A DNA stretch of 43,502 nt, from NCBI GenBank assembly GCA_019112765.1, contig DXIU01000060.1, positions 1 to 43,502 of the forward strand, in the 5' to 3' direction. Within the stretch, counting starts at the first letter, position 1. Every line of letters starts with the position of its first letter. Under the pieces are notes generated by a model. That model saw nothing but the letters and a program-made list of their open reading frames with translations, searched no databases and was not told the DNA's origin. The translations under genes were made by a program, and so were the position numbers. This stretch comes from Candidatus Mediterraneibacter norwichensis. Its GTDB lineage: Bacteria > Bacillota > Clostridia > Lachnospirales > Lachnospiraceae. Shown piece after piece: positions 14,543 through 34,730 of this stretch.

Positions 14543-14595
14543 TGAAAATTTATCTCAAAAAGCATTGACAAAAACAGAATGTTAGTTTAAACTAT
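14543..14595 (+). promoter_or_regulatory. feoA promoter with Fur-like box and GTTAG-type operator
   Basis: TTGACA (14565-14570), 17 bases, TAAACT (14588-14593). A Fur-like 15-mer TGAAAATTTATCTCA lies at 14543-14557, 22 bases before the -35. A GTTAG-N6-CTATC element at 14581-14596 (one mismatch to GTTAG-N6-CTAAC) overlaps the -10, which suits repression. A further imperfect repeat TAGAT-N6-ATCTA is at 14603-14618. Confidence 0.6.
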
Positions 14596-14663
14596 CAGCT
14601 GTTAGATGAAACAATCTACGATATTACGATTATTGAATTTTAAAAATGAGAGGATCAGAAACT

Positions 14664-14876
14664 ATGAATTTACTGGACGCTGAAGAAGGCAGGGAATATA
14701 TCATAAAAAATATTGTGACAGATGATGAGGAGATGGAGGCGTTCCTGTTTTCTCTGGGCTGCTATAGCGGTGAACCGATTACTGTGGTCTCCCGGGTGAG
14801 AGGCGGCTGCGTGGTTTCCATTAAGGATGGAAGATACAATATTGATACTGATTTAGCGCAAGCTATTTCAATATAA
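14664..14876 (+). CDS. feoA: FeoA, ferrous-iron uptake accessory protein
   Basis: A 70-residue SH3-like cytoplasmic protein that works with the FeoB iron transporter. It shows the FeoA pattern: EGREYIIKNI near the start, a central LGCYSGEPITVVSR (FeoA-type L/G-G...I.V), then GGCVVSIKDGRYNIDTDLAQAI. The ATG at 14664 follows GAGGATC; an ATG six codons earlier has no ribosome site. It is first in the feo cluster, separated from feoB by 87 bases that include a terminator-like hairpin, so feoA may also be read alone. Confidence 0.9.
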   Translation: MNLLDAEEGREYIIKNIVTDDEEMEAFLFSLGCYSGEPITVVSRVRGGCVVSIKDGRYNIDTDLAQAISI

Positions 14877-14886
14877 AACAAAGAAA

Positions 14887-14915
14887 AAATAGTAATTCTA
14901 TTTACTATTTTTTTT
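14887..14915 (+). terminator. Hairpin with T-run between feoA and feoB
   Basis: AAATAGTAA (14887-14895) and TTACTATTT (14902-14910) with a 6-base loop and a run of eight T. It is AU-rich and so probably partial, which would give more feoA than feoB transcript. Confidence 0.65.
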
Positions 14916-14923
14916 ACACCAAG

Positions 14924-14939
14924 GTTAGTTTATTCTAAT
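14924..14939 (+). promoter_or_regulatory. GTTAG-type operator before feoB
   Basis: GTTAG-TTTATT-CTAAT at 14924-14939, one mismatch from GTTAG-N6-CTAAC, 24 bases before the feoB start. No strong promoter is seen here; TATTCT inside the element could be a -10. Confidence 0.5.
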
Positions 14940-14963
14940 CGGAATGAAGGAGGAGAATTGCAG

Positions 14964-16967
14964 ATGAGAATTGCTTTTGCAGGAAATCCGAACAGCGGTA
15001 AAACTACCATGTATAATGCGCTGACAGGAAGAAATGAGCGCGTTGGAAACTGGGCCGGTGTTACGGTAGAGCGAAAGGAAAGCCTTATTAAAAAGGCGTA
15101 TTATGGCGGAGCGGAGGAACTGACAGCGGTAGATTTGCCGGGCGCTTATTCCATGTCTCCCTTTACTTCAGAGGAGAGTATCACCAGCAGCTATGTTAAA
15201 AATGAACATCCGGATGCGATCGTTAATATTGTTGACGCGACGAATCTGAGCCGGAGTCTGTTTTTTACCACACAGCTTCTGGAACTGGGGATCCCGGTAG
15301 TTGTGGCTCTGAATAAAAGCGATATTACAGATAAGAAACAGACAGAGATTGATGAAAATCTCCTGTCAGAGAAACTGGGATGCCCGGTGATCAAGACGAT
15401 TTCGACTTCCTCAGGTCATACAGGCCTGAAAGAGGTTGTCGCCGCGGCGGTTTCCTTAAAAGGAAAAGGGCAGCAGGCGCCTTATGTACAGGCGGATATT
15501 GACCTGCATGATAAAAACGCGGTAGAAGCCGCTGACAGAAAGCGCTTTGAGTTTGTAAACAGCATTGTAAAACAGGTGGAAAAGCGGAAAGTCTTTACAA
15601 AAGATAAGAATATACAGGATAAGATTGACGCGGTAATCACACATAAAATTATCGGTATTCCGATTTTCGCGGCTGTTATCTTCCTTGTATTCTACATATC
15701 CCAGACGACACTGGGAACATGGATTGCCGACTGGCTCGTGGCATGGATTGAGACCTTCCAGGGATGGGTCGGCGGACTTATGGAAAACGCGAACCCGCTG
15801 CTGTATGCGCTTCTGGTTGACGGAATTATCGGCGGCGTCGGAGCGGTAGTCGGATTCCTGCCGCTGGTAATGGTAATGTATTTCCTGATTGCCCTTCTGG
15901 AGGACTGCGGATATATGGCCCGCGCGACGGTTGTGCTGGATCCGATTTTCAAAAGAGTAGGACTTTCCGGTAAATCGGTTATTCCTATGGTTATCGGAAC
16001 CGGATGCGCCATTCCGGGAGTTATGGCTTCCCGTACGATCCGCAACGAAAGAGAGCGGAGAACAACAGCGATGCTTACACCGTTTATGCCGTGTGGAGCA
16101 AAGATTCCCGTAATCGCATTATTTGCGGGAGCATTCTTTGCGGACGCGTGGTGGGTGTCAGCTACAATGTATCTTGTAGGTATTGTACTGGTTCTGCTGG
16201 GAGCTCTTCTTGTAAAGAGAATTACAGGCCAGAAATACCGTAAGTCATTCTTCATCATTGAGCTTCCGGAATATAAACTGCCCAGCCTGAAGAGAGCCTG
16301 CGTATCCATGCTTGAGCGTGGAAAGGCTTATATCGTAAAAGCAGGAACCATTATTCTGGTATGCAATACGGTTGTCCAGATCATGCAGAGCTTTAACTGG
16401 CAGTTCCAGCTTGTGGAAGAAGGCGCAGAAAGCACTTCGATTCTGGCAAGCATCGCTCATCCGTTTGCGATTCTGTTTATCCCGCTTGGATTCGGCGTAT
16501 GGCAGCTGGCGGCGGCAGCCATTACAGGCTTTATCGCAAAGGAAAATGTAGTAGGTACTCTGGCAGTTGTTTATGGCGTTACAAATCTTATTGATACAGA
16601 TGAACTGGCACTGGTAGGAAGCGGAAGCGAAGTGGCGACGATTATGGGGCTTACAAAAGCAGCAGCTCTTGCCTACCTGATGTTTAATCTTTATACTCCG
16701 CCGTGTTTTGCAGCTCTCGGAGCTATGAATTCAGAAATGAAGAGCGGAAAATGGCTGTTCGGCGGTATATGCCTGCAGCTGGCGACGGGTTATACAGTGG
16801 CGTTCCTTGTATACCAGATCGGCACACTTGCGACGACAGGGGCTCTTGGAACCGCATTTGTTCCCGGACTGATTGCTATTCTGGTATTTGCAGCTATCAT
16901 TATATGGAGAATCCGCAAGTCGGATAAAGAATTTACTGCAGAATACAGCTTACATGCGAAAGCATAA
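14964..16967 (+). CDS. feoB: FeoB, ferrous-iron transporter
   Basis: A 667-residue inner-membrane Fe(II) permease with a fused G protein. G1 is GNPNSGKT (7-14), G3 DLPG (57-60), G4 NKSD (117-120). A helical insertion domain (about 170-225) leads to the membrane part with two Gate repeats, including GTGCAIPGVMASRTI and TPFMPCGAKIPV in the first and FIAKENVVGTL in the second. The C-terminus is short, without the cysteine-rich tail of enterobacterial FeoB; that role is probably taken by the separate proteins encoded next. The ATG at 14964 is eight bases from AAGGAGGAG. Confidence 0.95.
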   Translation: MRIAFAGNPNSGKTTMYNALTGRNERVGNWAGVTVERKESLIKKAYYGGAEELTAVDLPGAYSMSPFTSEESITSSYVKNEHPDAIVNIVDATNLSRSLFFTTQLLELGIPVVVALNKSDITDKKQTEIDENLLSEKLGCPVIKTISTSSGHTGLKEVVAAAVSLKGKGQQAPYVQADIDLHDKNAVEAADRKRFEFVNSIVKQVEKRKVFTKDKNIQDKIDAVITHKIIGIPIFAAVIFLVFYISQTTLGTWIADWLVAWIETFQGWVGGLMENANPLLYALLVDGIIGGVGAVVGFLPLVMVMYFLIALLEDCGYMARATVVLDPIFKRVGLSGKSVIPMVIGTGCAIPGVMASRTIRNERERRTTAMLTPFMPCGAKIPVIALFAGAFFADAWWVSATMYLVGIVLVLLGALLVKRITGQKYRKSFFIIELPEYKLPSLKRACVSMLERGKAYIVKAGTIILVCNTVVQIMQSFNWQFQLVEEGAESTSILASIAHPFAILFIPLGFGVWQLAAAAITGFIAKENVVGTLAVVYGVTNLIDTDELALVGSGSEVATIMGLTKAAALAYLMFNLYTPPCFAALGAMNSEMKSGKWLFGGICLQLATGYTVAFLVYQIGTLATTGALGTAFVPGLIAILVFAAIIIWRIRKSDKEFTAEYSLHAKA

Positions 16968-16979
16968 CGAAAAAATCAG

Positions 16980-17012
16980 CGGCGGACAGGGTGCGTACTT
17001 TGTCCGCCGTTT
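16980..17012 (+). terminator. Terminator-like hairpin after feoB
   Basis: CGGCGGACA (16980-16988) and TGTCCGCCG (17001-17009) followed by only TTTAA. Possibly a partial terminator or mRNA-processing hairpin. Confidence 0.55.
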
Positions 17013-17109
17013 AATATGAAAAGCAGAGAAGCGCGGCGGAATTTCCGGAAGTATGCTTTACAGAAGAGCGGATCCTGTGTATTGTTTATCATAGAAAGGG
17101 TGATGTTTT

Positions 17110-17484
17110 ATGGCAAATGTAATAGCAGTTCTTGTTCTGGCGGTTTTAGTCGGAAGCGCGTCTGCGTATATAGTAAAGGCAAAGAAAAGCGGCGTGAAAT
17201 GTATCGGATGCCCTGCCGGCGGAAGCTGCCCGGGCAGCGCCAGACTTCCGAAAAAGAAGCTGGACGGACGGGTGATTGGCAGAAAAACAATAAAAATATC
17301 CGGGATGCACTGTGCGCACTGCGCCGCGGATGTGGCAAAAACACTGAATCAGATTGAGGGAGTCCGGGCAGAGGTGAATCTTTCAAAAAACAGTGCCAGG
17401 ATTTCCTATGACAGAAAAATCGAAGACAGTGTTTTAAAAAATGCAGTAGAAAAGACAGGGTATCATGTCATCAGTATTTCATAA
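17110..17484 (+). CDS. FeoB-associated membrane-anchored HMA-domain protein 1
   Basis: A 124-residue two-part protein. Residues 1-20 form a single membrane anchor followed by KAKKSG and a cysteine patch CIGCPAGGSC (31-40), as in the small FeoB-associated Cys-rich membrane proteins. After a linker containing KKKLDG, residues about 57-124 are a heavy-metal-associated (HMA) domain with GMHCAHC. Such domains bind metal through the CxxC pair, mostly Cu(I) in known cases. The position directly after feoB suggests iron handling, so the metal is uncertain. AAAGGGTG precedes the ATG. Its downstream neighbour has the same architecture, implying duplication. Confidence 0.85.
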   Translation: MANVIAVLVLAVLVGSASAYIVKAKKSGVKCIGCPAGGSCPGSARLPKKKLDGRVIGRKTIKISGMHCAHCAADVAKTLNQIEGVRAEVNLSKNSARISYDRKIEDSVLKNAVEKTGYHVISIS

Positions 17485-17519
17485 ACAGAAAATGAGAAAT
17501 GCGAAAAAGAGGGATTCAT

Positions 17520-17888
17520 ATGGTTAATGGAATCATCATTCTGATTTTAGTTGTATTACTCTGTTTCGGGATTAAAAGCTCGATTAAACATTTTAAAGGA
17601 GAGGGCGCGTGCTGTGGAGGCGGATCCGGTTCAGTAAAGAGCAGAAAGCCAAAGAAAAAGAAACTGGACGGTCCGGTGACGGGGCATTATACACTCAGAA
17701 TCCCGGGGATGCACTGTCAGAACTGTGTTAATAGTGTAACGAGGGGGATTAATTCGATTGACGGAGCATCAGCGAAGGTCAGTTTAAGAAAGAAAAGCGC
17801 GGAAGTATCCTGTGACCGTGATATTGATAAGGCTGACCTGATACGTGCGGTAGAAAGCGCCGGGTTTGAGGTTGAGAGCATATCATAA
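17520..17888 (+). CDS. FeoB-associated membrane-anchored HMA-domain protein 2
   Basis: A 122-residue paralogue of the previous protein. An N-terminal membrane helix (1-20) is followed by GIKSSIKHFKGEG and a CCGGG patch, typical of another branch of FeoB-associated proteins. A lysine-rich linker (KKKKLDG) leads to an HMA domain (about 55-122) with GMHCQNC. The linkers and HMA halves of the two proteins match closely while their N-terminal tags differ. The ATG at 17520 follows AGAGGGA; the frame from 17499 has a worse site. It lies 35 bases after its paralogue and 67 before the Fur-family gene, in one likely operon. Confidence 0.85.
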   Translation: MVNGIIILILVVLLCFGIKSSIKHFKGEGACCGGGSGSVKSRKPKKKKLDGPVTGHYTLRIPGMHCQNCVNSVTRGINSIDGASAKVSLRKKSAEVSCDRDIDKADLIRAVESAGFEVESIS

Positions 17889-17955
17889 CAGCGCCGGGCG
17901 GAGCAGATCATGAATCTGCATCTGTGACGGAACTGAGAAGCAACAGGAGGCGGCT

Positions 17956-18393
17956 GTGACTAAAAAGGAACAGATTATTGAGAAATTGAAAGAAAACGGA
18001 TGCCGCATCACGAAGCAGCGCCTTATGCTCATAGATATTATTCTTGAAAACGACTGTTCAAGCTGTAAGGAAATATTCTATAAAGCGTCAAAAACAGATA
18101 ACAGAATCGGTGTTGCGACGGTATACCGCATGATCAACGCGCTGGAAGAGATCGGCGCAATCAGCAGAAAGAACATGTACCGGGTGGAGTGCTCTGATGA
18201 GTGTGCCCAGTCGGGCGGATGCGAGATTATCCTGGACGACAATACCACATATCACCTGTCTCCGCTGAAATGGAACAAGGTAGTCCAGGAAGGAATGAAA
18301 CGGTGCGGTTATCTGAAAGATCAGAAAGTAGCCGGAATACGCCTGCAGAGCAGCGGCATTAAAACGGTAAAAACAGAACAGACTGAAAATTGA
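17956..18393 (+). CDS. Fur-family regulator with cysteines in place of the usual histidine metal site
   Basis: A 145-residue Fur-type repressor. The winged helix is standard (GCRITKQRLMLIDII, then ATVYRMINALEEIGAI at 54-69). The dimerisation half lacks the usual His-rich metal motif and CxxC pairs. Instead it has Cys79-x3-Cys83-x5-Cys89, and Cys34-x2-Cys37 falls where Fur usually has a sensing histidine. It may therefore sense Fe(II), an Fe-S cluster, or redox through cysteines. The start is GTG at 17956 after AGGAGG. As the last gene of the feo operon it probably regulates its own cluster. Confidence 0.88.
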   Translation: MTKKEQIIEKLKENGCRITKQRLMLIDIILENDCSSCKEIFYKASKTDNRIGVATVYRMINALEEIGAISRKNMYRVECSDECAQSGGCEIILDDNTTYHLSPLKWNKVVQEGMKRCGYLKDQKVAGIRLQSSGIKTVKTEQTEN

Positions 18394-18414
18394 AAAGAAT
18401 TTATTAAACGGAAG

Positions 18415-18441
18415 AACGCCCGGAAACAGCAGGCGTTTTTC
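18415..18441 (+). terminator. Terminator of the feo-fur operon
   Basis: AACGCC / GGCGTT stem with an 11-base loop followed by TTT and pyrimidines. Confidence 0.7.
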
Positions 18442-18500
18442 CTGCTTTCTGCGGGTTCCGGCACTTTTTGTAAAGAGTTCTTCAGCTTTTACAGGAGTAA

Positions 18501-18561
18501 TGATAAAATTTCTCACCAGCTGCTGTTAGAATTGACTACCTTAAAATCAGGTTGTTATGAT
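18501..18561 (+). promoter_or_regulatory. Promoter of the P-type ATPase unit with Fur-like box and GTTAG-type operator
   Basis: TTGACT (18532-18537), 18 bases, TATGAT (18556-18561). A Fur-like 15-mer TGATAAAATTTCTCA (12 of 14 fixed positions of TGATAAT-N-ATTATCA) is at 18501-18515. GTTAG-AATTGA-CTACC at 18525-18540 (one mismatch) covers the -35 box. This mirrors the feoA control region and suggests joint metal control. Confidence 0.55.
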
Positions 18562-18612
18562 GTGACAGAAGGCAATTATTTTACATATTATTAACAAGGG
18601 AGTGATAGAGCT

Positions 18613-18693
18613 GTGAAGCAGCACAGATTCTGGGCATGGGCTTCGGTCTTTTGCTTTTTCATGGTATTTTATACCGGCTATAAACACAAATAA
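18613..18693 (+). CDS. 26-residue putative membrane peptide
   Basis: GTG start after AAGGGAG (18596-18602). The peptide begins MKQHRFWAWASVF, runs through one hydrophobic segment (about 6-20, rich in Phe, Trp and Val) and ends YTGYKHK. Basic ends around a single short membrane helix are typical of small bacterial membrane peptides, some of which modulate transporters. It is the first gene of the unit that continues with the anchored protein at 18731 and the P-type ATPase, so it may be a small subunit or regulator. Function is not known and no domain was recognised. Confidence 0.6.
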   Translation: MKQHRFWAWASVFCFFMVFYTGYKHK

Positions 18694-18730
18694 TGCGGCA
18701 TAACAAACAATAACAGGAGGTACTTAAATT

Positions 18731-19039
18731 ATGATCAGTGTTTCAACATTAAAGAAAATCGGTTTATTTGCAGGAGGTGTTCTGTTCGGAACAGCAGGCG
18801 TGAAAGTTCTCTCCAGCAAGGACGCCAAGAAAGTATATACAAACTGTACAGCAGCAGCTCTGCGCGCGAAGGACTGTGTGATGAAAACGGCTACTACCGT
18901 TCAGGAGAACGCAGAGGATATTCTGGCTGAGGCTCAGCAGATCAACGAGAGAAGAGCGGCAGAGGAAGCTGCGGCTGTTCAGGAAGACGCGGAAACAGAA
19001 AATGCAGGTGCGGAAGATTTTAAAGAAGAGACAGTATAA
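18731..19039 (+). CDS. Small membrane-anchored companion of the P-type ATPase (possibly DUF6110-like)
   Basis: A 102-residue protein with a glycine-rich hydrophobic N-terminus (about 9-27, IGLFAGGVLFGTAGVKVL) acting as an anchor or signal-like helix. A conserved-looking middle follows (SSKDAKKVYTNCTAAALRAKDCVMKTATTVQ, 28-58), then a long acidic, alanine/glutamate-rich helix or coil (60-102). Two cysteines (39 and 48) are the only ones. AGGAGG lies upstream. The next gene, the P-type ATPase, begins seven bases after it ends, so they are almost certainly co-translated. I believe this resembles a domain of unknown function seen beside such ATPases, but I cannot verify the family. Confidence 0.8.
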   Translation: MISVSTLKKIGLFAGGVLFGTAGVKVLSSKDAKKVYTNCTAAALRAKDCVMKTATTVQENAEDILAEAQQINERRAAEEAAAVQEDAETENAGAEDFKEETV

Positions 19040-19045
19040 TAAGCT

Positions 19046-21139
19046 GTGAAATTTATTATAAAGCATGAGATCAAGGGCCGTCTGCGTATTCATGTTGTTC
19101 AGGGAAGAATGACATGTGCGCAGGCGGATACTCTTTGCTGGTTTCTTGAAAAGCAGGAATATGTAACAGATGCAAAGGTTTATGAGCGCACCGCAGATGC
19201 CGTCATCTGTTATAAAGGAGACCGGGAAGAGATTGTGGCTGTGCTCAGAAGCTTCAGCTACGAAAAAGCAGATGTGCCGGAAAATGTACTGGCAGGCTCC
19301 GGAAGGGAGCTGAACTCCACCTATCGGGAGAAGCTGATCACAAAGGTGATCCTGCATTATGGAGGAAAGCTTATCGTCCCCTATCCGGTAAGGAAGGTCT
19401 GGATGACGCTGAAGGCCATCCGCTATATCTGGCAGGGAATCCGGTGCCTGGCAAAACGCAGGATTGAAGTTCCTGTACTGGATGCCACTGCGATCGGGGT
19501 GTCTGTATTCCGGGGTGATTTTAATACTGCGGGATCGGTGATGTTCCTGCTCGGCGTGGGAGAACTTCTGGAGGAGTGGACGCATAAAAAGTCCGTGGGA
19601 GATCTTGCCCGGAGTATGTCCCTGAATGTAAAGAAAGTCTGGCTTAAAAAGGATGAGCAGGAAGTGCTGGTCCACGCGTCCCGGATTCAGCCGGGGGATG
19701 TGGTAGTTGTGCATATGGGCAATGTGATTCCTTTTGACGGGGAAGTCTGCGGCGGGGAGGGCATGGTCAATCAGTCCTCGCTGACAGGCGAGCCCCTTCC
19801 GGTACAGAGAGAAAAAGGAAAAACAGTTTATGCAGGCACAGTCCTGGAAGAAGGAGAACTGGAGATTCTGGTCAAGGCTGTGTCCGGTTCCACGCGGTTT
19901 GAGAAAATCGTGACTATGATTGAAGATTCAGAAAAGCTGAAGTCTGCTCTGGAGAGCAAGGCAGAGCATCTGGCAGACCGGCTTGTGCCGTATACACTGG
20001 CAGGAACCGGCATTGCAGGCCTGGTGACCCGCAGTGCCACGAAAGCATTATCTGTGCTTATGGTGGACTTTTCCTGCGCGCTGAAACTTGCTATGCCGAT
20101 TGCCGTGCTTTCGGCTATCCGCGAAGCAGGACAGCGCGGCATTACCGTAAAAGGCGGAAAATATCTGGAAGCCGTAGCAGAGGCGGATACGGTTGTATTT
20201 GACAAAACAGGCACCCTTACGAAGGCAAAACCTACAGTAAAGGACGTTGTTGTTTTTGGTGATTATCCGGCAGATGAGGCGCTGCGTATTGCTGCCTGTC
20301 TGGAGGAACATTTTCCACATTCCATGGCCAAGGCAGTGGTGGATGCGGCAAAGAAGAAAAAACTGTATCATGAAGAGATGCATTCAAAAGTGGAGTACGT
20401 AGTTGCTCACGGAATCTCCTCTTATATAGAGGAAAAGAAAGTTGTCATAGGAAGCAGTCATTTTGTCTTTGAGGATGAAAAGTGCACGGTACGTCCTGAA
20501 AAGAAGGACGCGTTTGATGCGCTTCCGGCAGAGTATTCCCACCTTTATCTTGCAATTGACGGGGAACTGACGGCGGTAATCTGCATTGAAGATCCCCTGC
20601 GTGAAGAAGCTGCGGACATGGTGCGCCTGTTAAAGGCAGAAGGCATATCCAGGGTAGTTATGATGACAGGGGACAGCGAGCGGACCGCTGCTTCTGTTGC
20701 CGGACGGGTAGGAGTGGATGAGTACCATGCGGAAGTTCTTCCGGAAGATAAGGCCCGTTTTGTAGAAAATGAAAAAGCATCCGGAAGAAAAGTCATCATG
20801 ATCGGCGACGGGATCAATGATTCACCGGCGCTTTCCGCCGCGGACGCAGGCATTGCCATAAGCGATGGAGCGGAAATTGCCAGGGAGATCGCAGATATTA
20901 CCATTGCCGCGGATGATCTGCGGGAGCTGGCTACGCTGAAACATCTGTCCAATCAACTGATGAAACGGATTCACAGAAATTACCGGGCAATTGTAGGTAT
21001 CAATGCCGGACTGATCGGCCTGGGCGTGGGAGGAGTCATACAGCCTGCAACATCGGCTCTCCTTCACAATACATCAACCATTGCCATCAGTCTGAAAAGC
21101 ATGCAGAATCTGCTCCCGGAAGAAGCCCGGACAAAATAG
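19046..21139 (+). CDS. Atypical heavy-metal P-type ATPase (FSC in place of CPC)
   Basis: A 697-residue P1B-like ion pump. Residues 1-75 form a degenerate HMA-like domain without CxxC. The actuator has SLTGEP (245-250); phosphorylation Asp386 lies in DKTGT; TGD is at 541-543 and GDGIND at 588-593. In helix M4, where heavy-metal pumps have CPC, SPC or TPC, the sequence is Phe342-Ser343-Cys344 followed by ALKLAMP, adding a lysine. The HP motif is EHFP (421-424). About six membrane helices are visible instead of eight. The ion is uncertain; iron-linked promoter elements and the feo neighbourhood suggest Fe(II) or a related metal. The start is GTG seven bases after the upstream gene. Confidence 0.88.
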   Translation: MKFIIKHEIKGRLRIHVVQGRMTCAQADTLCWFLEKQEYVTDAKVYERTADAVICYKGDREEIVAVLRSFSYEKADVPENVLAGSGRELNSTYREKLITKVILHYGGKLIVPYPVRKVWMTLKAIRYIWQGIRCLAKRRIEVPVLDATAIGVSVFRGDFNTAGSVMFLLGVGELLEEWTHKKSVGDLARSMSLNVKKVWLKKDEQEVLVHASRIQPGDVVVVHMGNVIPFDGEVCGGEGMVNQSSLTGEPLPVQREKGKTVYAGTVLEEGELEILVKAVSGSTRFEKIVTMIEDSEKLKSALESKAEHLADRLVPYTLAGTGIAGLVTRSATKALSVLMVDFSCALKLAMPIAVLSAIREAGQRGITVKGGKYLEAVAEADTVVFDKTGTLTKAKPTVKDVVVFGDYPADEALRIAACLEEHFPHSMAKAVVDAAKKKKLYHEEMHSKVEYVVAHGISSYIEEKKVVIGSSHFVFEDEKCTVRPEKKDAFDALPAEYSHLYLAIDGELTAVICIEDPLREEAADMVRLLKAEGISRVVMMTGDSERTAASVAGRVGVDEYHAEVLPEDKARFVENEKASGRKVIMIGDGINDSPALSAADAGIAISDGAEIAREIADITIAADDLRELATLKHLSNQLMKRIHRNYRAIVGINAGLIGLGVGGVIQPATSALLHNTSTIAISLKSMQNLLPEEARTK

Positions 21140-21155
21140 CAGGAGATACAAAAAG

Positions 21156-21194
21156 AAGGAAGAAATCCGGAAACGGGAGGATTTCTTCCTTTTC
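21156..21194 (+). terminator. Terminator after the P-type ATPase
   Basis: AAGGAAGAAATCC (21156-21168) pairs with GGATTTCTTCCTT (21179-21191), then TTTT. Confidence 0.88.
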
Positions 21195-21237
21195 TGCTTT
21201 CCGGCGTCAGAGTACTGCCTGTTCACTGCGGAGTATG

Positions 21238-22190: not shown

Positions 22191-22195
22191 TGCAC

Positions 22196-22235
22196 ATAAA
22201 AAACCATCGCCTCAGATAATACTGTCAGGCGATGG
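22196..22235 (-). terminator. Terminator of the CmpB-type membrane protein gene
   Basis: CCATCGCCT (22204-22212) and AGGCGATGG (22227-22235). On the minus strand the stem is followed by TTTTTT. Confidence 0.88.
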
Positions 22236-27900: not shown

Positions 27901-28171
27901 CCAGATTCGGAAGCAGTGCATCCGGGCGTTCTTTTGCGATAATCTGCTCAAGACGTTCAGCGTTAAGCGGCTCGATGTACGTCGCGTCAGCGGTCTCCGG
28001 ATCGGTCATTATAGTAGCCGGATTGGAGTTGACCAGCACAATTTCGTAGCCCAGCTTACGCAGAGCTTTGCATGCCTGGGTGCCGGAATAGTCAAACTCA
28101 CAGGCCTGGCCGATAATAATGGGACCGGAACCTATAATAAGGATTTTATTGATATCTGTTCTTTTTGGCAT
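24944..28171 (-). CDS. carB: Carbamoyl-phosphate synthase large subunit
   Basis: A 1075-residue enzyme making carbamoyl phosphate for pyrimidines and arginine (E. coli CarB has 1073). Two homologous ATP-grasp halves are visible: the first opens with ILIIGSGPIIIGQACEFDYS (10-29), the second with IMILGGGPNRIGQGIEFDY (around residue 555). Grasp motifs include RPAYTMGGAGGG and RPSYVLGGRGME, and the IEINPR / LEANPR metal-binding stretches. The last approximately 140 residues form the MGS-type allosteric domain. The small subunit gene carA, normally adjacent, is not on either side. The gene has its own promoter (28214-28242) and an AGGAGG site. Confidence 0.96.
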   Translation of the reverse strand: MPKRTDINKILIIGSGPIIIGQACEFDYSGTQACKALRKLGYEIVLVNSNPATIMTDPETADATYIEPLNAERLEQIIAKERPDALLPNLGGQSGLNLCAELSKKGVLDKYNVQVIGVQVDAIERGEDRIEFKKSMDAIGIEMARSQVAYSVGEALETADQLGYPVVLRPAYTMGGAGGGLVYNKEELKTVCARGLQASLVGQVLVEESVLGWEELELEIVRDADNNMITVCFIENIDPMGVHTGDSFCSAPMLTISEDVQKRLQEQAYRIVESVQVIGGTNVQFAHDPVSDRIVVIEINPRTSRSSALASKATGFPIALVSSMLAAGLTLKDIPCGKYGTLDKYVPDGDYVVIKFARWAFEKFKGVEDKLGTQMRAVGEVMSIGKTYKEAFQKAIRSLETGRYGLGFARNYNDLSCRELLYKLAVPSSDRHFIMYEALRKGASVEEIHELTGVKVWFIRQMKELVEEEENLLEYRGGLPSDKLLVSAKKDGFSDRYLSMLLEIPEDQIRQRRISLGITEAWEGVHVSGTENSSYYYSTYNAEDKNPVNSDRPKIMILGGGPNRIGQGIEFDYCCVHAALSLKKLGFETIIVNCNPETVSTDYDTSDKLYFEPLTLEDVLSIYEKEQPLGVIAQFGGQTPLNLASELEKNGVRILGTSPSVIDLAEDRDQFRAMMDRLGIPMPESGMASTVQEALVIAEQIGYPVMVRPSYVLGGRGMEVVYDAESMTGYMEAAVGVTPDRPILIDRFLNHALECEADAVSDGTHAFVPAVMEHIELAGIHSGDSACIIPSVHISEEHVRTIKEYTRKIAEEMHVKGLMNMQYAIENGTVYVLEANPRASRTVPLVSKVCNIRMVPLSIEIITSEFTGNPSPVPALKEQDIPYYGVKEAVFPFNMFPEVDPLLGPEMRSTGEVLGLSDNYGEAFCKAQEATQTRLPLEGTVLISVNRRDKPEAAEIAEGFADCGFRILSTGETCSLIQAAGIPAERVKKLYEGRPNILDMITNGQIDLIVNSPSGKESIHDDSYLRKAAIKAKIPYMTTMAAAKAAVTGIRYVKEHGSGDVKSLQQLHSEIKEIP

Positions 28172-28213
28172 GAAATCTCATTCCTCCTGAATATTTATTA
28201 GAATTTAAGTATT

Positions 28214-28242
28214 ATTATACAATGGAATGCGTGTAAGGAAAA
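28214..28242 (-). promoter_or_regulatory. carB promoter
   Basis: On the minus strand TTTTCC (28242-28237), 17 bases, TATAAT (28219-28214), about 40 bases before the start codon. No PyrR-type leader was recognised between promoter and gene. Confidence 0.5.
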
Positions 28243-28337
28243 GAAAAATGTACGAATGGCCATGCCTTTTTTATGGCTGAATTATCATGGCAGAAAAAGA
28301 AGAAAGATTTCAGAATCAGACAAATCAGACGAGCCGG

Positions 28338-28427
28338 AGAAAAAAGCCCGCCGGAACATGCCGCGCAGGAAGCAGAGAAGAGGGCTCTTCTGTAAACTGT
28401 CCTGCGAGGCTGTACCCGCGGGCTTTA
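28338..28427 (-). terminator. Long structured terminator after the malic enzyme gene
   Basis: Read on the minus strand, AAGCCCGC (about 28425-28418) pairs with GCGGGCTT (about 28351-28343), followed by TTTT. Nested inside are CGCAGGA / TCCTGCG and an inner GAAGAG / CTCTTC hairpin, giving a three-step rod of about 80 bases. It ends the malic enzyme transcript; carB has its own promoter further on. The 28172-28464 gap holds no gene with a ribosome site. Confidence 0.6.
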
Positions 28428-28464
28428 TCAGCAATTGTTTCTGTCTGAAGAACGGCTGGCGCGC

Positions 28465-29637
28465 TTAGATGCGTGCAACACCGCTCTTACGTGCAGCTTC
28501 GGCTACAGCGCTTGCTACCGCGTCTTTTACACGGGGATCAAATGCAGCCGGAAGGATATAATCCGGATTCAGCTCGTCATCACTTACCAGTCCTGCAATT
28601 GCGTAGGCAGCTGCAATCTTCATCTCGTCGTTGATGTCAGTTGCGCGTACATCCAGTGCGCCGCGGAAAAGTCCCGGGAAGCAGAGTACGTTGTTTACCT
28701 GGTTCGGGAAATCGGAACGTCCGGTGGATACAACCGCAGCTCCGGCTTCTTTTGCCTCATCCGGGAAGATCTCCGGTGTCGGATTCGCGCAGGCAAAGAT
28801 AACCGGATCTTTCGCCATTGTACGTACCATATCGCCTGTTAATGTACCAGGTGCCGATACACCGATAAAGACATCAGCGCCCTTTAATACATCAGCCAGA
28901 GAGCCTTTCTCGTGGTTCTGGTTTGTAATTTTTGCCATTTCTTCCTTGATCGGATTCAGACCGTCACGTCCTTCATAGATTGCACCCTTGCGGTCAGTCA
29001 TGATTACGTTTTTCAGTCCCATGGAGATGAGCAGTCTGATAATTGCGATTCCGGCTGCTCCGGCTCCGGATGTGACAATCTTGACGTCAGACAGCTTCTT
29101 TCCTACAAGCTTCAGAGCATTGATGACGCCGGCCAGTGTAATAACGGCTGTTCCGTGCTGATCATCATGGAAGATCGGAATGTCACAGCATTCTTTTAAT
29201 CTTTTTTCAATTTCAAAGCAGCGGGGAGCGGAAATATCTTCCAGGTTTACTCCTCCGAAACTTCCGGCCAGGAGACGTACTGTTTCGACAATGTCATCCA
29301 CCTCTTTGCTGCGGATGCACAGCGGAATCGCGTCAACGTCGCCGAATTCCTTAAAGAGCACACACTTTCCTTCCATAACCGGCATGCCTGCTTCCGGGCC
29401 GATATCTCCCAGGCCAAGTACAGCGGTACCATCTGTGACAACAGCCACTGTATTCCAGCGGCGGGTCAGGTCAAAGCTCTTGCTGACATCCTTCTGGATC
29501 TCGAGGCAGGGCTGAGCTACACCAGGAGTGTAGGCAAGACTTAAAGCCTCCTTGGAATTTACAGAAGCCCTTGATTTGATTTCAATTTTTCCTTTCAGTT
29601 CATAATGCATTTTTAATGATTCTGATGCATAATCCAT
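28465..29637 (-). CDS. NAD(P)-dependent malic enzyme (decarboxylating)
   Basis: A 390-residue short-type bacterial malic enzyme converting L-malate to pyruvate and CO2. Catalytic Tyr36 is in AYTPGVA, the lysine lies in VMEGKCVLFKEFGD (about 88-101), metal-binding residues are in the HDDQHGTA segment (about 157-164), and the dinucleotide site is GAGAAGIA (about 192-199). It has no phosphotransacetylase-like extension. AGGAGGG precedes the ATG. It is divergent from a Crp/Fnr-family regulator, which could control it. Cofactor preference cannot be decided by eye. Confidence 0.93.
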   Translation of the reverse strand: MDYASESLKMHYELKGKIEIKSRASVNSKEALSLAYTPGVAQPCLEIQKDVSKSFDLTRRWNTVAVVTDGTAVLGLGDIGPEAGMPVMEGKCVLFKEFGDVDAIPLCIRSKEVDDIVETVRLLAGSFGGVNLEDISAPRCFEIEKRLKECCDIPIFHDDQHGTAVITLAGVINALKLVGKKLSDVKIVTSGAGAAGIAIIRLLISMGLKNVIMTDRKGAIYEGRDGLNPIKEEMAKITNQNHEKGSLADVLKGADVFIGVSAPGTLTGDMVRTMAKDPVIFACANPTPEIFPDEAKEAGAAVVSTGRSDFPNQVNNVLCFPGLFRGALDVRATDINDEMKIAAAYAIAGLVSDDELNPDYILPAAFDPRVKDAVASAVAEAARKSGVARI

Positions 29638-29826
29638 GGTAGTTCCCTCCTGTTAAAAAATATGTATTGTCAGGGGAAAAATATCCCGGCAATTTTACCA
29701 TATGTCTATTTTACACAATTTCTTCCGGCATGTAAACCCGGAATTCAAAAACATAGACAGAATCCTAACAGCTTGTGTATTTTCCGGACTTGTGTTACAT
29801 TTGGAAAAACAGGAGGTACTGACTCT

Positions 29827-30492
29827 ATGCGGGTATCTGAATACTTCCCGGTCTGGGATGAACTGTCAGCGGAACAGCAGAACAAACTGAACAGTGCAGC
29901 CATTTGGCACAGCGTAAAAAAAGGAGCTATGATTCACGGAGGAACAGAAGAGTGTCTCGGACGCCTTCTGATCTGTTCCGGACAGCTCCGGGCATATATC
30001 TGCTCGGAAGAAGGGCGGGAAATCACTCTTTATCGTCTGTTTGAACGGGATATCTGTCTGTTTTCCGCATCCTGTGTGATGAACAATATTCAGTTTACCC
30101 TTAGTATAGAAGCGGAAAAGGATACGGACTTCCGGGTGATTCCTCCGGGTATATATAGAAGTATGATGGAGAAATCCGCGCCCCTGGCGAATTACACAAA
30201 TCAGATTATGTCGGCCAGGTTTTCTGAAGTTATGTGGCTGATGGAACAGATTATGTGGAAAAGCTTTGACCGGAGACTGGCGGAATTTCTTCAGGAGGAA
30301 AGTATTCTGGAAGAGACCAGCACTCTTACAATTACCCACGAAAAAATCGCGAATCATATGGGAACGGCAAGAGAAGTCGTTACCCGTATGCTGAAATATT
30401 TTCAGCAGGAAGGACTTGTAGTATTGTCACGGGGAAAAATACAGATTACAGATCTGAAAAAACTGGCAGAATACAACAAAAATGAGAATTGA
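29827..30492 (+). CDS. Crp/Fnr-family transcriptional regulator
   Basis: A 221-residue regulator: cyclic-nucleotide-type beta-roll (about 15-125) and a Crp-type winged helix (about 150-215) with recognition helix GTAREVVTRMLKYF (169-182). It lacks the N-terminal cysteine cluster of oxygen-sensing FNR. Cys43, 50, 59, 77 and 83 are scattered through the sensor domain, so redox sensing is possible but not shown. The ATG at 29827 follows AGGAGGT; the longer frame from 29662 has no ribosome site. It is divergent from malic enzyme across a 189-bp gap, so reciprocal control is plausible. Confidence 0.9.
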   Translation: MRVSEYFPVWDELSAEQQNKLNSAAIWHSVKKGAMIHGGTEECLGRLLICSGQLRAYICSEEGREITLYRLFERDICLFSASCVMNNIQFTLSIEAEKDTDFRVIPPGIYRSMMEKSAPLANYTNQIMSARFSEVMWLMEQIMWKSFDRRLAEFLQEESILEETSTLTITHEKIANHMGTAREVVTRMLKYFQQEGLVVLSRGKIQITDLKKLAEYNKNEN

Positions 30493-30560
30493 TTTCAAAA
30501 TACTCTTGAAAAAGTTATACTGATCGTGTAATATATCAGTATGAGTTAGAAATAACTAAC
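30483..30560 (+). promoter_or_regulatory. Promoter of the DUF2325 gene with Fur-like box and perfect GTTAG-N6-CTAAC
   Basis: TTGAAA (30506-30511), 17 bases, TAATAT (30529-30534). The 15-mer TGAGAATTGATTTCA (30483-30497) lies 23 bases before the -35 and overlaps the end of the regulator gene. A perfect GTTAGAAATAACTAAC is at 30545-30560, just after the -10. The layout is almost the same as before enolase (34649-34730). Confidence 0.6.
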
Positions 30561-30614
30561 CAGAAAACGGAAAAATAAAAGTCATTTATTATTGTATGAT
30601 TTCAGGAGGTTGTT

Positions 30615-30896
30615 ATGAGTGTTGTGATTATAGGCGGCCATGACAGAATGGTATGTCAGTATAAGAAGATCTGTAAGCAGTTTAAATGTAAGGCAAAGGT
30701 ATTTACACAGATGCCGGCGAGTTTGGGCAAACAGATCGGCAGTCCGGATCTGATTGTACTTTTTACCAATACCGTTTCACATAAGATGGTCCGCTGCGCC
30801 GTAGAAGAGGCAGAACGCTGCAACGCAGATGTAATCCGATGCCACAGCAGCAGCAAGAATGCATTAGAAGAAATTCTTGGAAATGTATGTGCATAA
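30615..30896 (+). CDS. DUF2325 domain protein
   Basis: A 93-residue protein matching the DUF2325 pattern: MSVVIIGGHDRM at the start, then a Rossmann-like alternation with DLIVLFTNTVSHKMV (44-58) and DVIRCHSSSKNALEEIL. Cysteines at 14, 20, 25, 61, 69, 76 and 92 give an unusually Cys-rich small protein that could bind metal. AGGAGG precedes the ATG. Family members have no firmly known function. The metal-type operator in front suggests a role in iron or redox homeostasis; that is inference. Confidence 0.85.
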   Translation: MSVVIIGGHDRMVCQYKKICKQFKCKAKVFTQMPASLGKQIGSPDLIVLFTNTVSHKMVRCAVEEAERCNADVIRCHSSSKNALEEILGNVCA

Positions 30897-30974
30897 AGAT
30901 TCGAATTTATCTGCAGCATGTGACTGAATAAAGGTTCGAAAATACTTTGATACAGAGTAAGCAGAAATCGTATT

Positions 30975-31262
30975 CAGCTGTCTGTATCATAAGTATTTTC
31001 TGCGCTCATCCATCCGGCACTGCTGCCGATAATTTCAAATTCAACAAACAAAAACAAGACAGAACTTTTTCGACTACGGCTAACTGTTTATCCGGTTTTC
31101 GCTTTTCAAACAGGAAATGCACCTATTTTCAAACATCAGCAGAGAATACAGTTTCCATATCAGCCGATAAAGTTCTGCCTTCGTTTTTTCTTGTCTGCAT
31201 TTGAAATTATCGGAGACAGTGCTTGCTGGATGAGCGCAGAAAACAGCGGGATACAGACGGAT
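30975..31262. repeat. MITE-like repeat, copy B (complete, inverted relative to copy A)
   Basis: About 288 bp with imperfect terminal inverted repeats of about 95 bp: the left arm (CTGTCTGTAT, TTTTCTGCGCTCATCC, CCGATAATTTCAAAT, then GACAGAACTTT) is mirrored by the right arm ending CAGCGGGATACAGACGG. The interior matches copy A in reverse complement (GTTTATCCGGTTTTCGCTTTT). It lies between two convergent genes, where insertion is harmless. The rest of the 30897-31364 gap shows nothing else. No coding capacity; a transposase acting in trans would be needed. Confidence 0.75.
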
Positions 31263-31364
31263 GGATGTGCCACCCCACTTTTTCCGGAATACGATTTTCA
31301 TTCCATTGTATCCGGATGTTTTCGAATCTTTTCTCCAGCCCCACGTCCACGGCAAATTCAAAGC

Positions 31365-32078
31365 TTACAGTTTCAGATTCTTGAAGAGTTCTCCCAGACT
31401 GGTTCCGATATTTTCGCTCTTCGGGATTACGACTTTTTCTTCCGGCTCTTCTTTTACTTCCTCCAGAGCTTTCATGCTCAGGCTGACTTTGCCGTCTTTT
31501 ATTCCGATGACTTTAACTTTGACTTCATCTCCGACATTCAGTACATCAGAAGGAAGTTTTACGCGCTTCTGTGAAATCTGGGATACGTGAACGAGACCGG
31601 ACAGTCCGTTTTCCAGTTTGACGAATGCACCGTAATTCTGAAGAGTCTCAACTTTGCCGTTGAGTACCGTGCCGATTTTAAGGCTGGCGATCTGCTCTTC
31701 TCTGGCTTTTTTCTCTTTCTCCTTGAGAATCTCTCGTGCGGAGAGAACGAGACGGTTGCTTGCCTGATCAACGTCGATTACACGTACTTCGATATCTTTT
31801 AAAAGATAGGTTTCAAGATCCTCGATATAGGAAAGGGAAAGTTTGGAAGCGGGAACAAATCCCCGGAGACCTTCCACCATAACGATAACTCCGCCGTTGA
31901 CAACACCTTCTACTTTTACTGGAAGAATGGTCTGTTTTTCCATATATTCCGTAACTCTGTTCCAGGGATTGGCGTCATCAAAATGTTCCTCGTAGTCAGC
32001 CATAGTTTCTTCCGGCTTCTCTGCTGTTGTTTCTTCAGCTTCATTTGTCTGTAATTCTTCCTTTAATTCTTCGCTCAT
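31365..32078 (-). CDS. Two-S1-domain RNA-binding protein
   Basis: A 237-residue cytoplasmic RNA-binding protein. A glutamate-rich N-terminus (1-35) precedes an S1 domain (about 51-115, GVVNGGVIVMVEGLRGFVPASKL, ending RLVLSAREI), a charged helix (116-132), and a second S1 domain (about 133-203, GTVLNGKVETLQNYGAFVKL, GLVHVSQIS, VSLSMKAL). This resembles a short ribosomal protein S1-like or general-stress S1 protein and is too short for full S1. The ATG at 32078 follows GAGGTG; the frame from 32150 has no ribosome site. It is convergent with the DUF2325 gene across the repeat. Confidence 0.9.
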   Translation of the reverse strand: MSEELKEELQTNEAEETTAEKPEETMADYEEHFDDANPWNRVTEYMEKQTILPVKVEGVVNGGVIVMVEGLRGFVPASKLSLSYIEDLETYLLKDIEVRVIDVDQASNRLVLSAREILKEKEKKAREEQIASLKIGTVLNGKVETLQNYGAFVKLENGLSGLVHVSQISQKRVKLPSDVLNVGDEVKVKVIGIKDGKVSLSMKALEEVKEEPEEKVVIPKSENIGTSLGELFKNLKL

Positions 32079-32279
32079 TGTGCAGCACCTCAACTTACTT
32101 TCTTTTTGTTCAATGGCAACAGTATACCATATTCCGGGCAGAAAAAACAACAGTCAGCCGCAATCCCGGCTTAAAATCTTATAATTTTTATTGACGAAAC
32201 TGCAAAAAAATGGCAATCTGATAGATAATAATGAATGAAATGCTGCCGGAAGGGCAGTTTTTGTGAATGGAGAGAGAAG

Positions 32280-33929
32280 ATGAATAAGGAAAAAGAGAGA
32301 AAAATATATGTGGTAGGACATAAGAACCCGGATACAGATTCCATTTGTTCTGCGATTGCCTATGCTGCTTTGAAAACTGCTGTGACGGGGAAAAAATATG
32401 AACCACGGCGCGCAGGACAGCTGAATGAGGAGACGCAGTATGTGCTGGAACGTTTTCATGTGAAGACCCCGGCGCTGCTGTCAGATCTGCGGGAGCAGAT
32501 CAAGGATCTGGAACTGAAAGAAGTAGAAGGGTTAAAAGACAGCATCTCCATCCGTACGGCATGGGAAAAGATGAGAGAGTCGAATATCCATACACTTCCG
32601 GTTACAAGAGACGGAAAACTGGAGGGTCTGATTACGATCGGAGACATTGCCATGACTTATATGGAAGTTTATGACAGCACAATTCTGTCAAAAGCGAGGA
32701 CTCAGTACAGAAACATTGCCCGGGCTGTGGATGGAGAGATTATTACCGGAAATGAACACGGATATCTGCTGAAGGGCAAATCCGTTATTGCCGCTTCCAG
32801 CAAAATTCTGATGTCAGATTTTATTAATAAAGATGATCTTGTTATCATGGGAGACAGAAAGGATGCCCAGCAGTGTGCGGTTGATATGGATGCAAGCTGC
32901 ATGGTGGTATGCCAGAACGCTCATATTTCGGAGAAAATTATAAAGCAGGCTGAAGAAAAAGAGATTGTGATTATCCGTACGCCTCACGACACTTTTACAG
33001 CTGCGCTTCATATTAATCAGAGTATTCCGGTGAAATATTTCATGACAAAAGAAAACCTGGTTACATTCCGGATGCGGGATTATGTGGATGATGTAAAAGA
33101 AGTAATGGCCAAAAAACGGTTCCGTGATTTCCCTATTGTAGACAATAAAGGAAAATTTCTGGGACTTATTTCGAGGCGAAGACTTCTTAATGTGCACAAA
33201 AAACAGGTTATTCTGGTTGATCATAACGAGAAGAGCCAGGCTGTTGACGGAATTGACGAAGCAGAGGTTCTGGAGATTATTGATCATCACAGGCTGGGCA
33301 GCATTCAGACGATGGGACCGGTATTTTTCCGCAACCAGCCGGTGGGCTGTACAGCAACGATCATATACCAGATGTATCAGGAGTCAGGCGTAGAAATAAG
33401 CCCGGTAAATGCTGCGCTCCTTTGTGCGGCAATTATCTCGGACACTCTGATGTTCCGGTCCCCGACCTGCACGCCGCTGGATGAGAATACAGCAAAGACA
33501 CTGGCGGACATCGCAGAGATTGATATTGAAAGTCTGGCGCAGGAAATGTTCAATGCAGGAAGTAACCTGAAGGGAAAAAGTGCGGAGGAGATCTGTTTCC
33601 TGGATTTCAAGCAGTTTACGGTCAATGATACGGTATTCGGAGTGGGTCAGGTGAATTCTATGAGTGCTGATGAGCTGAAGGATATCAAAAAAATTGTAGA
33701 ACCTCATCTGGAGAAAGCACGCAGCGCCCACGGGCTGAATATGATCTTCTTTATGCTGACGAATATTCTGACCGAATCTTCGGAACTGCTGTGCTGCGGA
33801 CCGGAAGCCAGAGAGAAGCTGATCGGAGCCTATGATCTTCCGGAAGATACAGAAGAACTGATGCTGAAGGGTGTGGTTTCCCGTAAAAAACAGCTTGTGC
33901 CGGCTCTTGTCGCGGCTCTGCAGCAGTAG
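32280..33929 (+). CDS. CBS/DRTGG-domain manganese-dependent inorganic pyrophosphatase
   Basis: A 549-residue family II pyrophosphatase hydrolysing PPi. The DHH core starts with GHKNPDTDS (13-21) and is split by a regulatory insert of CBS (about 85-132), DRTGG-like (about 135-245) and CBS (about 252-305) domains; it resumes with VDHNE (313-317), the DHH motif at 335-337 and the DHHA2 C-terminal domain (about 410-549). Known CBS-pyrophosphatases are controlled by adenine nucleotides or diadenosine polyphosphates through this insert. The ATG at 32280 follows GGAGAGA. It is followed 23 bases on by the flavin reductase-like gene, so they are probably co-transcribed. Confidence 0.93.
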   Translation: MNKEKERKIYVVGHKNPDTDSICSAIAYAALKTAVTGKKYEPRRAGQLNEETQYVLERFHVKTPALLSDLREQIKDLELKEVEGLKDSISIRTAWEKMRESNIHTLPVTRDGKLEGLITIGDIAMTYMEVYDSTILSKARTQYRNIARAVDGEIITGNEHGYLLKGKSVIAASSKILMSDFINKDDLVIMGDRKDAQQCAVDMDASCMVVCQNAHISEKIIKQAEEKEIVIIRTPHDTFTAALHINQSIPVKYFMTKENLVTFRMRDYVDDVKEVMAKKRFRDFPIVDNKGKFLGLISRRRLLNVHKKQVILVDHNEKSQAVDGIDEAEVLEIIDHHRLGSIQTMGPVFFRNQPVGCTATIIYQMYQESGVEISPVNAALLCAAIISDTLMFRSPTCTPLDENTAKTLADIAEIDIESLAQEMFNAGSNLKGKSAEEICFLDFKQFTVNDTVFGVGQVNSMSADELKDIKKIVEPHLEKARSAHGLNMIFFMLTNILTESSELLCCGPEAREKLIGAYDLPEDTEELMLKGVVSRKKQLVPALVAALQQ

Positions 33930-33952
33930 AGGGTAAAGGAGAAAGAGAAAAG

Positions 33953-34636
33953 ATGACAAAACAGATCTGGAAACCGGGAAATATGCTTTATCCGCTGCCG
34001 GCGGTTATGGTCAGTACTGCAGACTGCGGCGGCAATGCAAATATTATTACAATTGCATGGACGGGAACGGTATGCACCAATCCGCCTATGATATATATTT
34101 CGGTCCGGCCGGAACGGTATTCTTATAATATGATAAAGGAAAGCGGTGAGTTTGTGATCAATCTGACCACGCGGGAACTGATGAAGGCGGCTGACTTCTG
34201 CGGGGTCCGTTCCGGAAGAGATACCGACAAATGGAAACAGTGCGGTCTGACTCAGAAACCAGCTTCTTCTCTGAAGTATGCACCTGTGATTGCGGAAAGT
34301 CCTGTAAACATTGAGTGCCGTGTAGAGAAAATTGAGGAACTGGGAAGTCATCACATGTTCCTGGCCAGAGTTACTGCCGTTCAGACGGATGAAGCATATA
34401 TGGACAGAAACGGGCGGTTTGAGCTGAACAGAGCCGGACTTGTGGCTTATTCCCACGGTGAATATCTGGCACTGGGAAAGAAACTGGGAACATTCGGATG
34501 CAGCGTGAAGAAAAATTCTCAGGCGCATTCCGGAAGAGCTGAAAAGAGGACATATTCCGGGAAAATTACAGAAAAAAACAGACAGAAAAAGCGTATGAAA
34601 GGCCAGAACACAGGGAAAAATAGGAGAAGCAGATAA
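33953..34636 (+). CDS. Flavin reductase-like FMN-binding protein with basic tail
   Basis: A 227-residue protein of the flavin reductase / FMN-binding split-barrel family. The typical start PGNMLYPLPAVMVSTAD (8-24), the segment IITIAWTGTVCTNPPMIYISV (31-51) and SGEFVINL (64-71) identify the domain (about 10-180). Residues about 185-227 form a lysine/arginine-rich, probably disordered tail absent from the core family; it could bind nucleic acid or a partner. It follows the pyrophosphatase closely. GTAAAGGAGA precedes the ATG. The electron partner is unknown. Confidence 0.87.
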   Translation: MTKQIWKPGNMLYPLPAVMVSTADCGGNANIITIAWTGTVCTNPPMIYISVRPERYSYNMIKESGEFVINLTTRELMKAADFCGVRSGRDTDKWKQCGLTQKPASSLKYAPVIAESPVNIECRVEKIEELGSHHMFLARVTAVQTDEAYMDRNGRFELNRAGLVAYSHGEYLALGKKLGTFGCSVKKNSQAHSGRAEKRTYSGKITEKNRQKKRMKGQNTGKNRRSR

Positions 34637-34648
34637 TAAGAGTAAAAA

Positions 34649-34730
34649 TGAGAATAGATATCAATAAATAGCTTGAATTAAAAGAGGGACTCTGGTAAAA
34701 TACATATAGTTAGAAACGACTAACTATATG
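34649..34730 (+). promoter_or_regulatory. Enolase promoter with Fur-like box and extended GTTAG-N6-CTAAC palindrome
   Basis: TTGAAT (34673-34678), 17 bases, TAAAAT (34696-34701). The 15-mer TGAGAATAGATATCA (34649-34663) lies 24 bases before the -35. After the -10, CATATAGTTAG (34703-34713) and CTAACTATATG (34720-34730) form a perfect 11-bp-arm palindrome with a 6-base spacer, centred on the GTTAG-N6-CTAAC core. It covers the expected transcription start, so a bound protein would block initiation. A GCCCTGA / TCAGGGC hairpin follows in the leader. Confidence 0.65.

Follow-up and report, generated by a model that had tools for sequence, protein, structure and literature searches.

The window analysed here is a stretch of 43,502 nt from Candidatus Mediterraneibacter norwichensis (contig DXIU01000060.1, assembly GCA_019112765.1, own genome 2.6 Mb), in which the palindrome GTTAG-N6-CTAAC stands before feoA, feoB, a DUF6110/P-type ATPase unit, a DUF2325 gene and the enolase gene (eno). 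We conclude that the DtxR-family protein whose gene diverges from feoA most likely uses this palindrome as its operator; it is predicted to repress iron uptake and linked genes when iron is sufficient, with a Fur-type second input at some of them. An earlier reading of the letters alone (the sequence-only reading) had described a recurring control element tied to iron genes, and spacing, conservation and gene context bear it out.

The palindrome, its spacing and its placement

The window holds five sites with at most one mismatch against 0.64 expected, and none of 100 dinucleotide shuffles reaches five. The positions given in the sequence-only reading were correct: the sites at 14581, 14924 and 18525 carry one mismatch each and those at 30545 and 34709 are perfect, the latter with the 11-bp arms claimed for it (34703–34730). 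In the own genome, the palindrome is perfect at 8 places and present with one mismatch at 6. When perfect half-sites were counted at gaps of 0 to 18, 10 places were found, 8 of them at gap 6, 2 at gap 8 and none at the other 17 gaps, and the reversed pattern, used as a control, gave a single perfect occurrence at spacing 6, compared to 8 for the palindrome. The occurrence of the palindrome in this genome is not due to chance. Thirteen of the 14 sites are intergenic, as read from the open reading frame (ORF) lists, the exception being C12:2656 (a mechanical 60-aa ORF across the C36 site was ignored), and in the genus as well the palindrome lies mostly outside coding regions. In 37 genomes of the genus, 190 perfect palindromes were found versus 42 occurrences of the reversed pattern (summed rows). 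The two half-site pairs with spacing 8, both perfect, lie at G000:C22:1255 and C45:36860.

The palindrome is kept upstream of orthologues within the genus (all sites were located by pattern match). Two outcomes that the sequence-only reading had named as refuting it, equal frequency in coding regions and promoters and lack of conservation before orthologues, were not seen in the genus. It is perfect before DUF2325 (30545–30560 in the window; gene at 30615–30896, plus strand, Pfam DUF2325) in all 30 genus loci fetched from 44 matched places, some of the remaining 14 having been read later. With at most one mismatch, it precedes feoA (14646–14876, plus strand, Pfam FeoA) in 27 of 28 loci, in the window as GTTAG-N6-CTATC at 14581–14596, and feoB (14958–16967, plus strand, Pfam FeoB_N, Gate and FeoB_C) in 25 of 28, in the window as GTTAG-N6-CTAAT at 14924–14939. 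The feoA set comprised 28 of 30 loci, including G052 of another family; the two most distant, L107 and L108, were left out and have no site with up to one mismatch before feoA, L107 having a perfect one before feoB. Before eno (34791–36107, plus strand, TIGR01060 above cut-off), the palindrome, whose core spans 34709–34724 in the window, occurs in 21 of 28 loci and is perfect in 20 (28 of 30 loci were used, two being without anchor). The DUF6110 gene (18731–19039, plus strand, Pfam DUF6110), first in its unit and followed by the heavy-metal P-type ATPase gene (19046–21139, plus strand, TIGR01525 above cut-off), is preceded by a site with at most one mismatch in 17 of 28 loci (GTTAG-N6-CTACC at 18525–18540 in the window; two short loci of the 30 were left out). 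Another 17 DUF2325 starts were read, most of them from other genera (at least two, L188 and L247, are of the same genus); 10 have a site within 200 bp. A degenerate copy with two mismatches is found 20 bp downstream of the feoA site (14601–14616), and the two-mismatch form recurs in part of the relatives.

The footprints, from which promoter parts were identified by eye, place the box differently at each gene. It lies over the likely -10 of feoA, where it also faces the divergent regulator gene, holds the likely -35 (TTGACT) of the ATPase unit, and follows the likely start at DUF2325 and eno, just 3' of the likely promoter in the case of DUF2325; between feoA and feoB, it sits before the feoB ribosome-binding site. 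Because a fixed sequence thus occurs at varied positions, all of which would hinder polymerase, the box reads as a repressor operator.

A survey that started from the pattern, with one site per relative and the genes unchosen, covered 15 genus genomes (L034–L048) and 14 genomes of other families. In the genus, a reference partner was found at 11 of the 15 sites, namely DUF2325 (three times), a methyltransferase (twice) and, once each, eno, feoA, a flavodoxin, a sortase, a 160-aa surface-cluster protein and an exporter; by our reading, the other four sites lie near methyltransferase-, peroxiredoxin- and LysR/HAD-like genes. A single one of the 15 falls within an ORF of at least 150 aa. In the other families, 6 of the 14 sites had a reference partner. 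In the own genome, a site was also found at another copy of DUF2325 (C36:1743), where a TGA-N9-TCA box lies at -61. A methyltransferase operon, a cluster of class B sortase and surface-protein genes and two TetR/ABC-exporter clusters have sites as well.

The candidate reader of the palindrome

The protein that we propose as reader of the GTTAG box (14105–14530, minus strand) belongs to the DtxR/MntR family, with a Fe_dep_repress helix-turn-helix domain and a Fe_dep_repr_C domain both above the Pfam cut-off. Its ORF of 141 aa, an MntR-like length, holds these two domains only, DtxR chains being 226 aa long. Among solved sequences, the closest is MntR 2h09, identical letter for letter to E. coli MntR along the aligned part; the regulator misses the curated NCBIfam MntR cut-offs (76.2 bits versus 153, and 63.4 versus 138). 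As judged from Pfam and from the solved-structure search, the regulator falls between MntR and DtxR. When the own genome was searched with its sequence, the sole match was the regulator itself.

The RH and ACRIEH motifs of the regulator align with the DtxR/MntR metal ligands and are kept across relatives. ACRIEH matches ACRWEH of DtxR, unlike EGMEH of E. coli MntR (Cys replaces Glu), and the metal-pocket Cys is kept in all 16 homologues that could be parsed out of 17, the own protein among them. The N-terminal ligand position is Asn in the regulator and Asp or Met in a few relatives. The Mn ligands of MntR are Asp8 and a Glu99-type residue, and at the aligned positions the regulator carries Asn and Cys instead; a Cys in the metal pocket is tied to an Fe(II) response. 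Since the DtxR-type Cys goes together with iron-gene targets, iron is likely to be the metal that the regulator senses.

Co-occurrence ties this regulator to the palindrome. We scanned 80 regulator loci (the best 80 of at least 577 relatives, 881 kb in total) for inverted repeats of all 5-mers with gaps of 0 to 14, masked N runs being set aside. The top inverted repeat was GTTAG with gap 6, seen 61 times versus 0.1 expected, the other 14 gaps together giving 1, and ORFs of at least 150 aa hold 4 of these 61 perfect sites versus 77 percent of random positions. Allowing up to one mismatch, a site is present somewhere in all 48 feo-bearing loci, 5' of a feo gene in 46 of them. It lies within 350 bp upstream of the regulator in 47 of the 80 loci (26 perfect), and five of these 47 have no feo gene in the locus (L244, L252, L276, L289 and L298); in G047 and G054, where feoA had no match, perfect sites precede the regulator match by 94–211 bp. 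Four genomes of other families (G038, G045, G048 and G055) gave no regulator match; of their seven sites, four were examined and all four lie within ORFs. Site partners in relatives are feoA, feoB, a DUF3793–flavodoxin pair, a Fur-like gene, exporters and a class B sortase. By this co-occurrence, the protein encoded at 14105, which the sequence-only reading called IdeR-like and put forward as a possible reader, is the most likely reader of the palindrome. A DUF3793 gene followed by a flavodoxin-like gene (by reading), with a GTTAG box upstream, was seen at L177 3482–4536 and L175 1356–2398, in two other families. A trend whereby other families have GTTAGC rather than GTTAGT together with differing recognition-helix residues is too small to claim.

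Several results weigh against this interpretation. In the own genome, the reversed pattern outnumbers the palindrome once one mismatch is allowed (26 places versus 14) or gaps 0–18 are pooled (50 versus 10), so that the case for the palindrome rests on perfect matches at spacing 6, on the single preferred spacing and on placement. Outside the genus, enrichment is mild: in 24 genomes of other families, the palindrome is perfect at 61 sites and the reversed pattern at 42, and therefore many single sites there may be chance. Six of the 14 other-family survey sites are within ORFs of at least 150 aa, some of them (L022, L027 and L030) in genomes where the regulator has a homologue, and the same holds for the in-ORF sites of L307 and L312. 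No site was found at 7 eno genes and 11 DUF6110 loci, out of 28 in each case; 20 of the 80 regulator loci are without any site, and in 33 the 350 bp preceding the regulator contain none. Seven perfect sites, one of them at DUF2325, are present in G027 (95 percent complete), whose best DtxR match is only 38 percent identical; an assembly gap is possible in this case, because feoA and DUF6110 are missing as well. In G014 (75 percent complete), the DUF2325 site is present and the regulator and feoA were not found. The reference set used for naming partners was picked from the window and the first sites, and 10 of the 61 perfect sites have no such neighbour. Finally, the regulator-locus and genus sets overlap, since at least 10 of the 80 loci lie on contigs equal in length to those of genus genomes already used, and the genomes are related.

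Other readers of the palindrome were considered. The perfect site at 30545 adjoins the gene of a Crp/Fnr-family protein (29662–30492), directly 5' of DUF2325, with an HTH_Crp_2 domain and a weak cNMP_binding match, and a 5-N6-5 arrangement is also the geometry of Crp sites. Yet, among 60 other genomes, relatives with 58–59 percent identity were found in G001 and G008 only, the other matches at E 1e-20 or better being at most 43 percent identical; the relative in G008 is on another contig than DUF2325 and that in G001 is about 880 kb away from it. The DUF2325 palindrome, by contrast, is perfect in all 30 genus loci, and none of the 80 regulator loci contains a relative of this protein at the BLAST cut-off used. 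On these grounds we rejected this neighbour as the reader, a role that it is very unlikely to play. We consider it just as improbable that the reader is a TetR-family protein encoded next to the exporters, with the occurrence of the palindrome at feo and DUF2325 being incidental: palindromes do flank TetR genes in two own-genome clusters, but a relative of the C9 TetR protein occurs in only one of the 80 regulator loci (L255; whole genomes were not searched for TetR), to be compared with the 47 loci in which the box is just 5' of the DtxR-like gene. The palindrome might also act in the RNA, as a hairpin near the start of the message (at eno, an 11-bp stem with a 6-base loop), and indeed it lies at about the likely transcript start of eno and DUF2325, its loop bases varying while the arms are kept. 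At feoA and the ATPase unit, however, it would not be wholly transcribed, because it spans the likely -10 and the likely -35, respectively, and DUF2325 does not share the long arms seen at eno; we give this explanation very little credence. Binding of the palindrome by the DtxR-family regulator remains our preferred reading.

The upstream Fur-like box and the predicted circuit

As the sequence-only reading had it, TGA-N9-TCA is present upstream of four of the five window sites. Pattern matching places it at 14543–14557 (5' of feoA, TGAAAATTTATCTCA; only some feoA loci have it at a similar position), 18501–18515 (DUF6110/ATPase unit; footprint GAtAA.ATTTaTC in 16 aligned loci), 30483–30497 (5' of the DUF2325 promoter) and 34649–34663 (5' of the eno promoter). 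The distance of 22–31 bases before the -35 also holds when measured start to start (22, 31, 23 and 24). We rejected TGA-N9-TCA as a stand-alone signal, its count in the window (19 versus 15.8 expected) showing no enrichment; what sets it apart is its placement, 24–62 bases 5' of the palindrome at these four sites. Among 30 DUF2325 promoters of the genus, 25 have it at -62 to -65 relative to the palindrome, and 10 have another copy at -37 to -39; of 20 eno promoters, 17 have it at -60 or -61 (20 of 21 were counted, one having too little upstream sequence). When scored as matches out of 14 to a 7-1-7 TGATAATNATTATCA-like consensus, 21 of 30 DUF2325 and 18 of 20 eno promoters reach at least 11, compared to 2–3 percent of shuffles, as expected of a Fur box.

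The second box is not universal. In the own genome it is absent at the feoB, exporter and sortase sites, and TGA-N9-TCA occurs at only 3 of the 17 further DUF2325 starts, one of which (L247) is of the same genus. The proposal of a two-part control element thus applies to DUF2325 and eno in the genus, where the arrangement is usual, and does not extend to these other sites. In G056, whose sole DtxR match is 30 percent identical, the DUF2325 gene lacks a GTTAG box within 200 bp and has a Fur box scoring 13 of 14; in L265, both boxes are found at DUF2325, a distribution that fits two iron inputs able to replace each other in evolution. Upstream of DUF2325 in L070, the two Fur-type boxes are exact reverse complements, together making up a large inverted repeat that encloses the likely -35.

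The own genome encodes three Fur-family candidates, namely a full-length Fur (G000:C135:22437), a PerR-like protein encoded next to a rubrerythrin-like gene and a Cys-rich protein (17956–18393). Canonical Fur is the simplest candidate reader of the upstream box. The sequence-only reading had put forward the Cys-rich protein, which could act as a thiol or Fe-S sensor. Its gene lies between feo and the ATPase unit; similar genes stand 5' of DUF2325 in G037 and beside feo in G018, accompany feo and DUF2325 in other families, and in some relatives bear a GTTAG box in their own promoter. Against this, the protein covers only the N-terminal part of the Fur profile (positions 1–64 of 121), a full Fur and a PerR-like protein are present besides it, and the upstream box resembles the ordinary Fur consensus. 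We did not retain this assignment, which appears rather unlikely.

Taken as a mechanism centred on the DtxR-family regulator, the data suggest the following sequence of events. When ferrous iron is sufficient, a metal-loaded dimer of the regulator would occupy the box and block transcription of feoA, feoB, DUF2325, the DUF6110/ATPase unit and genes for exporters and surface proteins, and in this genus that of enolase as well; at low iron, the regulator would release the box. The Fur-type box just 5' of the promoter would add a second iron input at DUF2325 and enolase, and probably at feoA and the ATPase unit, most simply via canonical Fur. Genes with both the palindrome and a Fur-type box therefore probably answer to two iron sensors. 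More tentatively, and with the balance slightly against it, a broader picture can be proposed, in which enolase and DUF2325 of Mediterraneibacter are gated together, through one conserved promoter architecture, by Fur and by a DtxR-type repressor whose operator is of the MntR type, the DtxR-type protein alone being the main iron regulator elsewhere in Lachnospiraceae, where Fur has been assumed. The outcome is a base-by-base predicted iron regulon, with a strong regulator candidate, in a major family of gut bacteria, and one that takes in enolase and DUF2325, a gene of unknown function. It makes iron sensing by gut commensals testable; information on nonpathogenic bacteria was termed scarce in the available part of a 2021 review (PMC7872071).

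Relation to known systems, and further features of the window

The mntH and mntS/mntR regions of E. coli (K-12 sequence) contain a TAG-N6-CTA core, in sites which we take to be the MntR boxes. Because this core has the same spacing as the palindrome, the operator is of the MntR type in geometry. The classic DtxR box, by contrast, is 19 bp long with one base between GTTAG and CTAAC, and a perfect GTTAG-N1-CTAAC is found nowhere in the own genome. The spacing thus differs from that of the DtxR box, as the sequence-only reading had it, and equals that of the E. coli core. The present system differs from E. coli MntR in the outer bases of the half-site (GTTAG versus CATAG), in the DtxR-type Cys of the metal pocket and in its targets, which are iron genes, no Mn transporter having been noticed beside the examined sites (none was searched for). 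It resembles DtxR/IdeR in family domains, in the ACR-x-EH metal motif and in having an iron-gene regulon, and departs from DtxR in operator spacing and in the replacement of Met10 by Asn. Dual repression of mntH by Fur and MntR was reportedly described by Patzer and Hantke in 2001.

In clostridia, feo and flavodoxin of C. acetobutylicum are under Fur control according to the available part of PMC6311696, and the ferrosome proteins FezA and FezB of C. difficile are repressed by Fur according to that of PMC12574912. Here, by contrast, such genes bear a DtxR-type box, and a Fur-type box at some only. In titles and abstracts of the open-licence literature, we found no description of this operator or of such a DtxR/MntR iron regulon in Lachnospiraceae or clostridia, which is weak evidence of absence; the motif string had no match in that literature, nothing was found there on enolase within an iron regulon, and the available parts of PMC545781, PMC2628430 and PMC8754126 contain no matching box. 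We rate as apparently new a putative DtxR-family iron operator with MntR geometry, paired with Fur boxes in one genus and reaching enolase; its core spacing was known.

The predicted structure of DUF2325 is a small Rossmann-like fold (predicted local distance difference test score, pLDDT, 95). Foldseek returned generic Rossmann-like, PTS-IIB-like and receiver-like matches, the sole match with E of 0.001 or below being a designed protein, and the profile search gave only a designed model (E 0.0055). As these matches are generic or to designed proteins, no function of DUF2325 follows from them.

Two features adjoin operators of the window. Between the eno operator and the start codon (34750–34790), a second inverted repeat is found, of the form CCTTTGCCCC ... 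GGGGCAGAGG in several relatives. Between feoA and feoB, an AT-rich hairpin followed by a T-run (14884–14916), terminator-like by eye, adjoins the operator at 14924, and in the 25-locus footprint of feoB the T-run at this place is conserved.

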